From positions 1 to 47,698 of IMG/VR virus record IMGVR_UViG_3300009428_001375: a DNA stretch of 47,698 bases; one strand, 5' to 3'. Below, piece by piece: positions 7,673 to 37,303 of the stretch; position 1 is the stretch's first letter; the number at the start of each line of letters is the position of its first letter. The notes beneath the pieces are model-generated. The model made no database searches, was not told where the DNA came from, and saw only the letters and a list, made by a program, of their open reading frames with translations. Source of the DNA: a virus. The position numbers were made by a program, and so were the translations under genes.

Positions 7673-7991
7673 TTGTGGATACAGCCCTGAGCCTAAAGTA
7701 GCAGTTCAGACAAATTACGTTGAAAGAAGCATCCCATTACAATCGGCTCCTGATCCTGTTGACATGCCAGAAGTGGAGTGGTACGTAGTTAATGAAGATA
7801 ACCTAGACGAGTTCTTAGGTAGAATTAATAATGATGTGGGTGACATTGTATTCATCTCTATCACACCAAATGGCTATGAGAACCTTGCATTAGGTATCGC
7901 AGAGCTAAGAAGGTATATACAACAGCAGAAAGAAATCATTGCCTATTACGAAGAAGCAGTGACTCCTATTAGCGACAAAGTTACACAGTAA
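7629..7991 (+). CDS. Outer-membrane spanin lipoprotein (Rz1-like)
   Basis: A lipoprotein of about 120 aa. It starts at GTG 7629 (MKLIIIPSLLLLLSSCG), 7 nt after AAAGGAG at 7615-7621; GTG 7626 is an alternative but closer to the site. The lipobox LSSC marks acylation of Cys16. The mature part begins Pro-rich and ends in a helix (about 85-115). The gene starts 44 nt before the end of the Rz-like gene in another frame. At about 105 mature residues it is longer than lambda Rz1. No endolysin is visible nearby. Confidence 0.65.
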   Translation: MKLIIIPSLLLLLSSCGYSPEPKVAVQTNYVERSIPLQSAPDPVDMPEVEWYVVNEDNLDEFLGRINNDVGDIVFISITPNGYENLALGIAELRRYIQQQKEIIAYYEEAVTPISDKVTQ

Positions 7992-8029
7992 ATTTACTAT
8001 TTATTTTTGTGATATAGTCAAAATAACGC

Positions 8030-8058
8030 TTTACAACGTTTCAGTTTGTATATATAAT
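8030..8058 (+). promoter_or_regulatory. Sigma70-like promoter for the nrd operon
   Basis: TTTACA (8030-8035), a 17-base spacer and a perfect TATAAT (8053-8058) lie 93 bases before nrdB. The leader contains a small hairpin at 8101-8122. I searched by eye for an NrdR box in this gap (7992-8150) and saw none. This is probably an early or middle promoter using host RNA polymerase. Confidence 0.65.
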
Positions 8059-8100
8059 ACTACCAACAAACAAAGATATTCACACACATAGTAGAATGAA

Positions 8101-8122
8101 ACGATAGTATTATTACCATCGT
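8101..8122 (+). other. Small hairpin in the nrdB 5' leader
   Basis: ACGAT and GTA pair with TAC and ATCGT around a TTAT loop, with one A/C mismatch, 28 nt before the nrdB ATG. It would be part of the leader transcribed from the promoter at 8030. It may stabilise the mRNA or tune translation; no known riboswitch motif is seen. Confidence 0.35.
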
Positions 8123-8150
8123 ATTGTATGCTTTACGCTAAGGACTGCCG

Positions 8151-9122
8151 ATGCTATTCGAAGAACAAATTTCCCGCAAACCTGATCTATACCCTTGGAC
8201 TAAGCAGTTCATTGAAGCCATATGGCAAGGGTTCTGGACACCTGAAGAATTTAATTTCCGTTCAGACTACTCCCAATTTAAAACAGACTTGACCCCAAAA
8301 GAGCAAGAGGTTGTTGTAAAAACAATGTCGGCAATCGGTCAAATCGAAATAGCAGTAAAAAGCTTTTGGGCAGACATAGGTAATCACTTACCACATCCTT
8401 CTATCAAAGACTTAGGCTTTGCAATGGCTAACTCTGAAGTTATCCACAACATGGCATACGAAAAAATACTTGACGTTCTACACTTGACACATGTGTTTGA
8501 AGAAAACCTGAACGTTGATGTGATTAAAGGTCGTGTAAATTATCTTCGCAAGTACAACAAGAAAGTGTATGAGGACGAGAAGAAACAATACATTTATTCA
8601 ATTATGTTGTTTACTTTGTTCGTAGAAAATGTTAGTCTGTTCTCACAGTTTTATATCATTATGCACCTAAATCGTAATAAGGCAGTAATGAAAGATTGTG
8701 CACAACAAGTTCAGTATACACGTAATGAAGAAATGCTACATGCTCAAGTCGGTATCAAGTTAATCAACACATTGCGCGAAGAGTATCCTGAGCTGTTTGA
8801 TGCAGAGTTAGAAGCACGTGTTAGAGAAGAATGTATTGATGCATTGAAAGCAGAAAGCAAAGTGATTGATTGGATTATGGATGGTTATTCAGCACCTGGT
8901 CTAAATGCAGACATTCTAAAGTCTTTCATTGCCAAGCGTATGGCAGAATCAATTGATCAGATTGGTTTTGATAGTAGTGAGATCGTATATGACGAAGCAC
9001 ATATTAAAGAAACGTTTTGGTTTGATGAAGAATTGTATGGCGCAAACATGACTGATTTCTTTCAAAAGAGACCAGTGGAATACGCCAAAGGTCAGGGTAT
9101 CACAGCAGAAGATTTATTTTAA
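8151..9122 (+). CDS. nrdB: Ribonucleotide reductase class I beta subunit
   Basis: This 323-aa radical-generating subunit works with NrdA to make deoxynucleotides for phage DNA. All expected residues are visible: a first acidic ligand, Glu66, in place of the E. coli Asp84; Glu96, His99 and the radical Tyr103 in SEVIHNMAY; a FVENVSLF helix carrying the next Glu; and EEMLHAQ supplying the last Glu and His. Presence of the Tyr argues for an ordinary tyrosyl-radical di-iron (or Mn-Fe) enzyme. The gene is followed 11 nt later by nrdA, with AAAGGAG between them. Length is normal for a phage NrdB. Confidence 0.95.
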   Translation: MLFEEQISRKPDLYPWTKQFIEAIWQGFWTPEEFNFRSDYSQFKTDLTPKEQEVVVKTMSAIGQIEIAVKSFWADIGNHLPHPSIKDLGFAMANSEVIHNMAYEKILDVLHLTHVFEENLNVDVIKGRVNYLRKYNKKVYEDEKKQYIYSIMLFTLFVENVSLFSQFYIIMHLNRNKAVMKDCAQQVQYTRNEEMLHAQVGIKLINTLREEYPELFDAELEARVREECIDALKAESKVIDWIMDGYSAPGLNADILKSFIAKRMAESIDQIGFDSSEIVYDEAHIKETFWFDEELYGANMTDFFQKRPVEYAKGQGITAEDLF

Positions 9123-14890: not shown

Positions 14891-15166
14891 ATGTCACACA
14901 ATTTAATTATATTCGGTAAAGAGAGTTGTAGTTATTGCGATAAAGCCGTTGATTTAGCAAAGGATCAAATTCAGCATCCTTTGACTTGGATATATCGTAG
15001 CACTTCTGAATCGACTGATGCTATCTTAGAATTATATGAACGAAAGAACGATGTTAAGACATTACCTGCAATATTTTGGAATGACAAATACGTGGGTGGA
15101 TATACAGAGTTTGCTCAAGCAGTTGAAGACATGGCTTTAGGTAACTATGGTGATGGTGGCTTTTAA
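14891..15166 (+). CDS. grx: Glutaredoxin
   Basis: A 91-aa glutaredoxin-fold protein. The redox site is CSYC at residues 13-16, the cis-Pro lies in TLPAIFWND (about 56-64), and GGYTEF (about 68-73) forms the glutathione-binding turn. Phage glutaredoxins reduce the NrdA C-terminal cysteines, and the nrdAB pair lies upstream. The final codon overlaps the tctA start (TAATGG). Confidence 0.9.
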   Translation: MSHNLIIFGKESCSYCDKAVDLAKDQIQHPLTWIYRSTSESTDAILELYERKNDVKTLPAIFWNDKYVGGYTEFAQAVEDMALGNYGDGGF

Positions 15167-16602
15167 TGGAAGATATATACGCTATAATTTTAGGAACAAT
15201 GTATGGTTTAATAATCGGCATAATTCCTGGAGCTGGTGCCACCACTGGCCTGATTGCTATCTTTTCTTTTCTTCATGTGTTTGCAGATCCTTATACTGTA
15301 GTTATATTTTGTATGGCAGTTGTTGCCGCATCTACTACAGGTGATACCTATACAGGAGTGCTATTAGGCATTCCTGGAGCTAACTCTGCGGCAGCTACAA
15401 TGGTAGATGGGTTTCCTTTGGCAGTACAAGGTAAGGCAACTTATGCTATTACAGCGGCAGTCGTCACATCTACAATCAATGGTCTTTTATGGGGTTCATT
15501 AGTATTCTTTTTACTCCCTTGGTATACTCAATTGATTATGGTATTTGGTGTGCCTGAGCTGTGGGCGTTTGTCGTACTGGCAATGACTACTGTTGCGTTT
15601 GTAAGTAATAAGTGGTGGATTAGAAGTATGATTGCTTTAGCGGTTGGTCTAATGATAGGTTTAGTCGGTGTTGATCCTTATACAAACATAGATCGATATA
15701 CATTAGGATGGGACTATCTTGCAGATGGTTTACAACTTATGACAGTGACGGCAGGGCTGTTTGCTATACCAGAAATGATAGAAGGTTTAGTTAAAAGAGA
15801 TAGAACTGCTACTGTCCTAGACGGCAAGAAGCAAACTTGGGATGGTATTAAAGCTGTATGGATACACAAATGGTTGGCTTTAAGAGGTGGTTTTATAGGT
15901 GCTTTCATTGGTGCTTTACCTGGACTTGGCGGTGGCATGGCTGATTGGATGGCCTATGGTCAAGCTGTTGCAACAACTAAGAATCCAGATGTGCCGTTTG
16001 GTAAAGGTAACATACGTGGTGTGATCGGACCTGAAGGTTCTAATAATGCACAAAAGGCTACGTCTATGATACCTACAGTATTGTTTGGTATTCCAGGGGC
16101 AAGCTTTGCCGCAATTCTTATGGCTATCTTTGCATCAGTAGGGTTTGATCTAGGTTCGTATGATCTTGTAGACGATACAAGGTTCTTTGATAGTCTTACA
16201 TACGGCTTTATGTGGGCAACTGCAATCACTGGTATTATATGTTTGTTTAGCACAAAGTACATTGCTAAGATTGCAACAGTACCATATAAGTATTACTTTC
16301 CTATACTATTAGGATTCGTCACTTGGGCATGTGTTCAGTACACAGGTGGCTGGGAAGATTATGCTCTTTTAGCAGTATTCACTGCTTTAGGATTATTAAT
16401 GAAGAAGTTTAAGTTTAGTAGACCTTCAATGCTAATTGGTTTCATACTAGCTTATAAATTTGAGGCATTGACAATACAATTAACCTCTATATATACCTTT
16501 GAACGATTGATAGATCGTCCAATATTTTTAACCTTAATAATACTATCCGTATCTTTATTTGTATGGGGATTGTTTCGTAAATCAGAAATGGAGTTTTCGT
16601 AA
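15166..16602 (+). CDS. tctA: Tripartite tricarboxylate transporter large membrane subunit (TctA family)
   Basis: A 478-aa polytopic membrane protein, about 10-12 helices by eye. Family signatures are clear: GIIPGAGATTGLIA near residue 18-31, GIPGANSAAATMVDGFPLA near 67-85 and GPEGSNNAQKA...GIPGASFAA near 287-313. TctA forms the channel for import of citrate or other carboxylates driven by an ion gradient. It overlaps grx by 1 nt and is directly followed by the tctC-like gene. The usual small subunit TctB (about 150 aa, four helices) is not present between or beside them. Confidence 0.9.
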   Translation: MEDIYAIILGTMYGLIIGIIPGAGATTGLIAIFSFLHVFADPYTVVIFCMAVVAASTTGDTYTGVLLGIPGANSAAATMVDGFPLAVQGKATYAITAAVVTSTINGLLWGSLVFFLLPWYTQLIMVFGVPELWAFVVLAMTTVAFVSNKWWIRSMIALAVGLMIGLVGVDPYTNIDRYTLGWDYLADGLQLMTVTAGLFAIPEMIEGLVKRDRTATVLDGKKQTWDGIKAVWIHKWLALRGGFIGAFIGALPGLGGGMADWMAYGQAVATTKNPDVPFGKGNIRGVIGPEGSNNAQKATSMIPTVLFGIPGASFAAILMAIFASVGFDLGSYDLVDDTRFFDSLTYGFMWATAITGIICLFSTKYIAKIATVPYKYYFPILLGFVTWACVQYTGGWEDYALLAVFTALGLLMKKFKFSRPSMLIGFILAYKFEALTIQLTSIYTFERLIDRPIFLTLIILSVSLFVWGLFRKSEMEFS

Positions 16603-35243: not shown

Positions 35244-35317
35244 ATGGGTGTAGTGAAATGGTATCACGGCGGATTCCAAATCCGCAAGTCTGGGTTCGAT
35301 TCCTAGCACCTGTGCCA
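35244..35317 (+). tRNA. tRNA-Trp (anticodon CCA)
   Basis: A 74-nt cloverleaf including an encoded CCA end. The acceptor stem is ATGGGTG with CACCTGT; the D stem is GTGA/TCAC; the anticodon stem GCGGA/TCCGC closes the loop TTCCAAA, giving anticodon CCA at 35276-35278; the T arm is CTGGG-TTCGATT-CCTAG. Discriminator base is G, as in bacterial tRNA-Trp. It is the only tRNA I find in this window. Its own promoter lies directly upstream. Confidence 0.92.
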
Positions 35318-36145: not shown

Positions 36146-36174
36146 TTGCATCAATATAACAAATAGTGTATAAG
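36146..36174 (+). promoter_or_regulatory. Sigma70-like promoter for tmRNA
   Basis: TTGCAT (36146-36151), 17-base spacer, TATAAG (36169-36174). The predicted transcription start is close to 36181, just before the acceptor piece of the tmRNA. I looked for a glutamine riboswitch before the tmRNA, because one has been described for a related marine phage, and saw no CGTTCA...GGAAGTAGG-type motif. Confidence 0.6.
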
Positions 36175-36180
36175 TAACTC

Positions 36181-36490
36181 ATAAACGTTGAAGCAACGTG
36201 AACGCATACTGGACTTGGGGGCAGTACCCAACTGCTCCACCATAAGCACATTACGCCTTACTGCAATAAGGTGTTTTTGCAGAGACATAGACCTCACGAG
36301 GGTTGAAGATGATGTGCTTTTGATGGGGCAGAAATAGGATCGACAGGTGTTGTAGTGAAGTGGAGTTTATCGGGTGACTGCGTAATTGGTCAAAACTACT
36401 AAATGCAAATGAAAATTTCGCACCTCGTGAATTCGCTCTAGCAGCTTAATTCAACGGAGTTGGCGACTTACTTGGCAACAGAAAAGTCGC
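36181..36490 (+). ncRNA. ssrA: Circularly permuted two-piece tmRNA
   Basis: The acceptor piece comes first and ends CTGCTCC-A-CCA (36232-36242), preceded by a T arm TTGGG-GGCAGTA-CCCAA (36215-36231). After a spacer (36243-36324) closed by AAGCACAT/ATGTGCTT, the coding piece starts with GGGGCAG (36325-36331), which pairs with CTGCTCC to complete a 7-bp acceptor stem, including the G3-U pair needed for alanine charging. The tag frame begins at GCA 36405 and ends at TAA 36447-36449: ANENFAPREFALAA. This is the alphaproteobacterial permuted form. It would rescue stalled ribosomes during infection. The exact 5' end and the 3' end of the coding piece are estimates. Confidence 0.93.
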
Positions 36491-36498
36491 ATTTTTTT
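36463..36498 (+). terminator. Terminator at the tmRNA 3' end
   Basis: GCGACTT (36463-36469) pairs with AAGTCGC (36484-36490), followed by a T run to 36498. It ends the tmRNA transcript 20 bases before the porin gene and may also form the last helix of the coding piece. Confidence 0.8.
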
Positions 36499-36517: not shown

Positions 36518-37303
36518 ATGAACAAATTAATAATTGCAACTACTGCCTTAATAGTTGTAGCGTCTTCATGCCAAGCAGAAATGCTAATTGGTGCAGATGC
36601 AGAAGTTAAAATCAAGAAGAATTCAACGACTAAAAATTACGAAACAGTCACAACATTAGGTCTGAACTTTGCAACAGATCAGGAACTTGCATTCGGTGGA
36701 TTTAACATCGATTCAAAAGATGGTGGCACATTTGCATTAGACGAGTGGAACATTGGTACAACAATAGGTGTTGCTAAAGTTTCTTTCGGTAAGCAAGGTG
36801 GTATATTTCCTGAAGACATTTCTGATACAGGAAATGGTTCTGTAGCAACAATTACAATGAACGAATCATTGTCAGTTGAAGCATATGGTCTTAGTGTTGC
36901 TTTAGGTCTTGACGACTATAAGAACGATGTGTTTGGTAACAACGATAACATACAAGTTGCATACACAATTGACGGCGAAACATTAGACGTGACAGCTGGT
37001 ATCGATTATAATATCGATACAGAAGAAAGCGTCTATGGCACGCGTGTCGATCTTTCAACATCTAATATAGCTGTTGGTGGTATTATGACTTATGGTACAA
37101 ATCTTAAAACAGTAGCATACGAAGCAGATGCAACTATTATGGGCGTAACCGCTTATATCAATGGCGACCAAAACGATATGACTGAAAATGTTGGTGCAGG
37201 TTATGAAATGGAAGTCGGTGGTTTAACAACTGAACTTGACATGAACTACAACTTCGATGCCGAACAAGTGACACCAAAGTTTACAGTAGGCTTTAGTTTC
37301 TAA
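36518..37303 (+). CDS. Porin-like outer-membrane beta-barrel protein
   Basis: A 261-aa secreted protein. Residues 1-20 form a signal peptide (cut after CQA). The mature chain alternates polar and hydrophobic residues in strands of about 10 and ends in TVGFSF, the C-terminal aromatic signature used by the BAM complex. The layout suits a small porin, about 12-16 strands. CAAGGAAAA gives the ribosome site. It lies right behind the tmRNA terminator without a clear promoter of its own. A phage porin could alter uptake or block other phages (both speculative). Confidence 0.75.
   Translation: MNKLIIATTALIVVASSCQAEMLIGADAEVKIKKNSTTKNYETVTTLGLNFATDQELAFGGFNIDSKDGGTFALDEWNIGTTIGVAKVSFGKQGGIFPEDISDTGNGSVATITMNESLSVEAYGLSVALGLDDYKNDVFGNNDNIQVAYTIDGETLDVTAGIDYNIDTEESVYGTRVDLSTSNIAVGGIMTYGTNLKTVAYEADATIMGVTAYINGDQNDMTENVGAGYEMEVGGLTTELDMNYNFDAEQVTPKFTVGFSF

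Follow-up and report, generated by a model that had tools for sequence, protein, structure and literature searches.

The locus considered here raises the question of whether the segment between the two pieces of a phage-encoded transfer-messenger RNA (tmRNA) is simply discarded, or is itself a second RNA carried on the same transcript. It lies in a whole linear virus record of 47,698 bases (IMGVR_UViG_3300009428_001375), hereafter the window, in which a prediction made from the letters alone had proposed a phage-encoded circularly permuted tmRNA with tag. That identification was confirmed by ARAGORN, which calls a permuted tmRNA (tmRNA*) with tag ANENFAPREFALAA, and by two Rfam models: alpha_tmRNA (RF01849; 36128-36493, 121.9 bits, E 7e-33, gathering score 50), the check that the original prediction had itself proposed, and tmRNA_permuted (RF04321; 36181-36449, 110.5 bits, gathering score 47). 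Both scores are far above the curated cut-offs, with the acceptor piece 5' of the coding piece. The window tmRNA is a further member of an already published kind; the new part is its spacer, which from its predicted fold is a strongly conserved and previously undescribed pseudoknot RNA that we call element X (Table 1).

Table 1. Coordinates of element X, the permuted tmRNA and adjoining features in the window
Feature	Position	Strand	Basis or description
Element X, conserved structured RNA	36244..36321	+	Blind covariance-model hit; pairing and double changes; fold z-score
X P1	36244-36251/36312-36319	+	Outer helix
X P2	36256-36260/36267-36271	+	
X pseudoknot CUGCAA/UUGCAG	Loop 36261-36266 with 36277-36282	+	H-type
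X P3	36291-36293/36301-36303	+	Small hairpin
Acceptor (3') piece of two-piece tmRNA	36181..36242	+	RF01849, RF04321, ARAGORN; T arm GGGGGCAGUACCC; CCA encoded at end (36240-36242)
T arm	36215-36231		Direct reading
Acceptor stem, CUGCUCC-ACCA with GGGGCAG	36232-36242/36325-36331		Direct reading; 7 pairs, G3-U included
Helix AUAAAC/GUUUAU	36181-36186/36365-36370		Direct reading
Intervening spacer, 82 nucleotides (nt)	36243..36324	+	Between CCA and first G of 5' piece
Coding (5') piece	36325..36490	+	RF01849; acceptor 5' strand, D loop, tag, 3' hairpin
Tag reading frame ANENFAPREFALAA and UAA stop	36405..36449 (tag 36405-36446, UAA 36447-36449)	+	ARAGORN; tag type ANDNFAPxxxALAA in most phage relatives
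3' hairpin with GGCAACAGAA loop, and U7 run	36463..36498 (hairpin 36463-36490)	+	RF01849 alignment, direct reading; GCGACUU...AAGUCGC, 14-nt loop, then A and U7; conserved tmRNA fold, probable transcription end
Promoter, TTGCAT - 17 nt - TATAAGTA	36146..36176	+	Sigma-70-like -35; -10 one base off T4-type late box TATAAATA; -74 from CCA end
tRNA-Trp (CCA)	35244..35317	+	ARAGORN, RF00005; ~0.9 kb upstream of tmRNA

An H-type pseudoknot in the spacer was first suggested by an alignment of relatives, and the 82-nt window spacer folded with the acceptor strands gives a z-score of -4.0. Across 16 relatives, the window being left out, 97.6% of cells in P1, P2, P3 and the pseudoknot are paired and nine pairs show double changes; covariation in these relatives is 0.287, against 0.149 (standard deviation 0.014) in shuffles. 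A blind covariance model of the 16 relatives, without the window and with the pseudoknot not included, returned the window spacer (60.6 bits, E 1.3e-13) as its sole hit in 47.7 kb. With the window and one further contig (L382) added, pairing is complete over P1, P2 and the pseudoknot (399 of 399 cells), double changes occur at 10 of 19 pairs, and the double-change cells number 44, as against 13.5 in shuffles; in slid control structures at most 50% of cells pair. In the alignment used in this test, P1 and P2 were fitted to the model but the pseudoknot was not; within the pseudoknot a single pair covaries (A-U to U-A, three sequences) and the other five do not vary. A further pairing, of CAUAG with the 5' strand before P2, is frequently broken by C-A and is not claimed. 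The spacer helix noticed in the original prediction is real and corresponds to P1, without the spacer having been recognised there as a conserved pseudoknot RNA.

Element X is an independent module that has been exchanged between tmRNA backbones and occurs in two genomic settings. It is 98% identical between the window and L382, for which the tmRNA pieces are 79-82% identical, and 94% identical between L350 and L358, as against 64-67% for the tmRNA pieces; 15 sequence pairs in all have X better conserved than the surrounding tmRNA, and X spans clearly different tmRNA backbones. Nine contigs have it free-standing, flanked by a terminator-like hairpin on its 5' side and a tRNA-Trp on its 3' side. 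Exactly one X occurs per record (20 of 20), and four records with a stand-alone X also have a separate permuted tmRNA without it; in L374 the X-free tmRNA spacer, of 264 nt, is occupied by a 77-codon open reading frame (ORF). A covariance search with fast filters found no X in the 147 Pelagibacterales and 385 alphaproteobacterial genomes sampled, the same search recovering X in all known carriers as a positive control, and the model likewise found none in eight other phage records, including Melnitz and six other isolates with a permuted tmRNA. Several candidates were set aside: a partial, weak BLAST match among named phages (Escherichia phage Goslar, E 0.7), judged chance; the spacer of L144, in which a similar pseudoknot is seen by eye and missed by the X model, excluded from the counts; and L369, L375, L378 and most of L381-L389, which are chance pattern matches within unrelated sequence.

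In all nine contigs with a stand-alone copy (L359, L370-L374, L377, L379, L380), the series of terminator hairpin, X and tRNA-Trp is preceded by a tiny ORF whose product has a WPP or WYPP motif (MSNTTTYITCWPPRDWGMF, MHKTAQQSFYWYPPTGRGLS); the motif W.?PP occurs in just 10 of 15,465 distinct ORFs of that size. FxxYxIWPPP is an arrest peptide, and by analogy the tiny ORF looks like an arrest-peptide attenuator. X itself was rejected as a riboswitch on direct reading, there being no expression platform after it in either setting.

Against Rfam 15 at lax thresholds the window spacer has no family match, the weak sub-threshold hits all lying near a stand-alone copy, and no description of X was found in the open-access papers searched. 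Every core part of the window tmRNA matches RF01849 and RF04321 above the gathering score, whereas the X spacer is in neither model and is mostly insertion in both alignments. The stable RNAs C and D of phage T4 are small RNAs of unknown role in the phage tRNA cluster; they resemble X by description only, as small phage RNAs, and differ in not lying within tmRNA spacers. The only published precedent found for a second RNA gene inside a tmRNA spacer is a tRNA-Ala within the intervening sequence of a permuted tmRNA, a single nominally archaeal case (PMC11915505), which differs in being an ordinary tRNA, whereas X is a fold without Rfam match across many phages.

As to the tmRNA that carries X, both pieces, the G3-U pair, the T arm and the tag frame can be read directly, as originally predicted, and the limits of the transcribed gene (36181-36498) had been placed correctly. 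The frame has a resume codon, an ALAA-type hydrophobic end and a stop, and gives a tag of 14 amino acids (aa). Phage relatives have seven acceptor-stem sequences, and every seven-pair stem among them retains G3-U. On this reading the gene is confirmed as a complete phage two-piece (permuted) tmRNA of alpha type, whose spacer, by analogy, would not be part of the mature molecule. The predicted terminator holds in part: the hairpin with its U7 run is present and is the probable transcription end, but its loop has the alpha_tmRNA model motif GGCAACAGAA, so that, as read from the model alignment, it is no stand-alone terminator but an element of the tmRNA fold that is in addition followed by a U run. 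A terminator scan missed it because the loop limit of the scan is 8 nt.

We consider it probable that the window encodes a phage two-piece tmRNA engaged in ordinary trans-translation, with the spacer as a second conserved phage RNA on the same transcript. The acceptor and coding pieces would be cut from one transcript and then pair, and the paired tmRNA would be aminoacylated with alanine, free stalled ribosomes and append the tag ANENFAPREFALAA, working with host SmpB and host proteases; we infer both the processing and this activity. X would ride the tmRNA transcript as a carrier and be released by the same tRNA-processing cuts as an RNA of ~80 nt, and in both settings it lies 5' of an RNase P site. 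That X then acts as an RNA in its own right we judge to be evenly balanced. Three points weigh against the overall reading: X may act solely within the precursor, the stand-alone copies are few distinct sequences of which several are nearly identical, and most relatives are contig fragments.

The best-surviving alternative, which we regard as possible though doubtful, is that X is a folding and processing module, which keeps the two acceptor strands in contact, exposes the RNase P site that follows it and is then degraded. Its position fits, lying in tmRNAs exactly between the CCA and the 5' piece, with P1 extending towards the acceptor stem in a stable joint fold, and the stand-alone copies are likewise just 5' of a tRNA and upstream of an RNase P site. 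Such a module is not required, however, since most alphaproteobacterial tmRNAs mature with spacers of 6-40 nt, and related phage tmRNAs have ORFs or short loops where X would be; in addition, the conservation of the X loop and linker exceeds what a mere clamp would need, and in L359 X lies ~50 nt from the tRNA. An unlikely role is that of a phage small RNA blocking a host factor, for example as a pseudoknot decoy like pseudo-ToxI against a type III toxin, or against a host RNA-binding protein. X is a small H-type pseudoknot, is apparently phage-specific among the genomes sampled, and has a precedent in the pseudoknot antitoxin mimics produced by phage PhiTE (PMC3475682); type III antitoxins such as ToxI and pseudo-ToxI, however, consist of repeats of ~36 nt and lack the additional closing helix and the hairpin that X, present as one copy of ~80 nt, possesses.

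Two further alternatives concern the tmRNA itself and are disfavoured. That it is a poison or decoy tying up host SmpB or the rescue system instead of rescuing ribosomes is very improbable given that the gene keeps its resume codon, tag frame, stop and ALAA end and that the same tag type recurs in other phages. Integration of prophages into ssrA is common (PMC9004378), but a piece of bacterial ssrA acquired by accident, or host sequence wrongly binned, can hardly be credited where the gene is complete, its T4-like phage gene neighbours have relatives in Melnitz and HTVC008M, promoters of phage type precede related copies, and all phage copies fall in one clade apart from bacteria.

A tmRNA with a second conserved phage RNA in its spacer, the reading that we prefer, can be set beside phage tmRNA spacers in general. 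These have a median length of 85 nt (18-229; 49 unique), compared with 7 nt for SAR11 and 29 nt for the remaining alphaproteobacteria, the phage set being partly enriched in X by later pattern searches, which biases the median upwards, with X-free spacers often long too. Among the 18 spacers of at least 100 nt that lack X, 14 hold an ATG ORF over 74-93% of their length, each at p <=0.035 against shuffles; small ORFs fill the tmRNA spacers of L002, L089, L165, L094, L103, L129, L200, L008 and L374. In the two families of spacer ORFs tested the nonsynonymous rate (dN) is well below the synonymous rate (dS), with a ratio of ~0.16-0.34 for the Melnitz type and ~0.08-0.35 for the MFDRL type, these being small ORFs and few pairs. 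The 66-aa spacer ORF of L008 has no free-standing relative in named phages. Isolates RcXuper, DSS3P8, DSS3_MAL1 and RcSimone-Hastad have spacers of 97-109 nt and of other sequence. We give about equal weight to either side of the broader proposal, that the supposedly discarded spacer of permuted tmRNAs in phages serves to carry structured RNAs or small proteins as cargo and that X is a new family of small structured phage RNAs in many marine viral contigs, lying inside tmRNA spacers or beside tRNA-Trp, freed by tRNA-processing enzymes and acting in infection.

Several further features of these tmRNAs were observed. The permuted tmRNAs of RcXuper, Phosso, DSS3P8, CcrBL9 and RcSimone-Hastad (L458, L459, L460, L461, L462) have no overlapping annotation, and the spacer of Phosso is ~400 nt. 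A GOLLD RNA lies ~60-200 nt upstream of the permuted tmRNA in the roseophages DSS3_MAL1 and DSS3P8 (L457 895-1358, L460 714-1147). The record of L134 has a second, partial tmRNA-like match (G159 50282-50431, 61.6 bits) 3 kb from the complete tmRNA, and one phage tmRNA containing element X (L376) has an odd 22-aa tag, ANFKPEAFTSIDMSMDSELLAA.

Two-piece tmRNA in marine phages has been published for Melnitz, counted among 53 phage tmRNA structures (PMC9004378), and a single acceptor-arm pattern matches more than 100 viral stretches. The Melnitz ssrA (L002), a permuted alpha-type tmRNA of a related marine myophage, is 73% identical to that of the window over 180 nt and shares the promoter type and a 14-aa tag; it differs in that its 142-nt spacer has a small ORF, not X, which is absent from its genome, and in the glutamine riboswitch that follows its tmRNA. 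Most phage tmRNAs, Melnitz included, have a promoter of the type TTGACA, ~17 nt, TATAAATA at -74 to -77 from the CCA end. Of 56 unique sequences upstream of phage tmRNAs, 44 contain the exact octamer TATAAATA, the T4 late box; it occurs in 2.5% of shuffles and in none of the 106 bacterial or 19 SAR11 upstreams. Combined with TTGACA, the octamer can equally be taken for a strong sigma-70 promoter, which may allow early as well as late expression. The promoter legible in the window, as the original prediction had it, agrees in position and sequence with this common promoter, of which it is a weaker version; a general promoter scan did not list it.

The original prediction had also seen no glutamine riboswitch at the window tmRNA, and an Rfam search of the window, tmRNA leader included, found none. 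Its further suggestion that control therefore differs from that of the related phage did not hold, the promoter type being shared and the Melnitz riboswitch (52.8 bits, L002 8200-8248) lying 3' of the tmRNA match (7775-8192). Because it is positioned after the tmRNA and before a 32-codon ORF, MTLYQQWCYLKAQKEYRRRQKILMYFRIRLKG (L002 8271-8369), that riboswitch cannot be a tmRNA leader in the usual sense, an arrangement at odds with the published description of a 'riboswitch-controlled tmRNA'.

A host of the alphaproteobacteria, or a gene derived from them, had been proposed, together with a comparison of tag and pieces with SAR11 ssrA. An alphaproteobacterial origin in general is plausible; a host of the SAR11 kind or a SAR11-derived gene did not stand up to that comparison. 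The SAR11 (Pelagibacterales) ssrA is likewise of the two-piece alpha type but differs in having 9-aa tags (ANDELALAA, ANNKLALAA, ANESYAIAA and similar), spacers of 6-13 nt and a separate tree position, and the 14-aa tag, 82-nt spacer and tree position of the window gene are not those of a SAR11-type ssrA. Phage tags are mainly 14 aa of the form ANDNFAPxxxALAA, nearer to ANDNFAEEVALAA of Maricaulis. FastTree on both pieces places 56 of 56 phage tmRNAs in one clade (0.999), apart from bacteria, at a distance of 1.25 from SAR11 vs 0.94 from the nearest other alphaproteobacterium, so that another bacterial group lies nearer than SAR11. Within the limits of short sequences and an AT-rich SAR11, this speaks against phage ssrA deriving closely from SAR11; the tree does not name a donor.

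The phage encodes a class I ribonucleotide reductase, PhoH and a T4-type exonuclease. Its CHASE2-adenylate cyclase has relatives in Melnitz (47%) and HTVC008M (34%) and is adjoined by a FecR-domain protein, the same arrangement as in Melnitz; a cyclase-based search of viral contigs recovered relatives (L007, L056, L008, L009) with a tmRNA 5-6 kb upstream. By gene content the phage is placed near the OM43 and SAR11 phages Melnitz and HTVC008M. Directly 3' of the tmRNA (36518-37303) is a 261-aa signal-peptide protein ending ...GFSF*, with the look of an outer-membrane barrel, which has no named-phage relative and no Pfam match; an ORF resembling it stands before the tmRNA in L374. A phage-encoded TctA-family tricarboxylate transporter subunit lies at 15166-16602 (Pfam PF01970, E 5e-95).

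Phage tmRNAs have so far been treated as simple rescue genes and their spacers as waste. Two published readings, the riboswitch control of the Melnitz tmRNA and a close SAR11 origin of phage ssrA, are weakened by the present comparison. The spacer element X is often as conserved as the tmRNA or more so, and where the tmRNA spacer serves another purpose X is retained at a different place in the genome; if X is an active RNA, it would add a hitherto unrecognised factor to infection by one group of marine phages.
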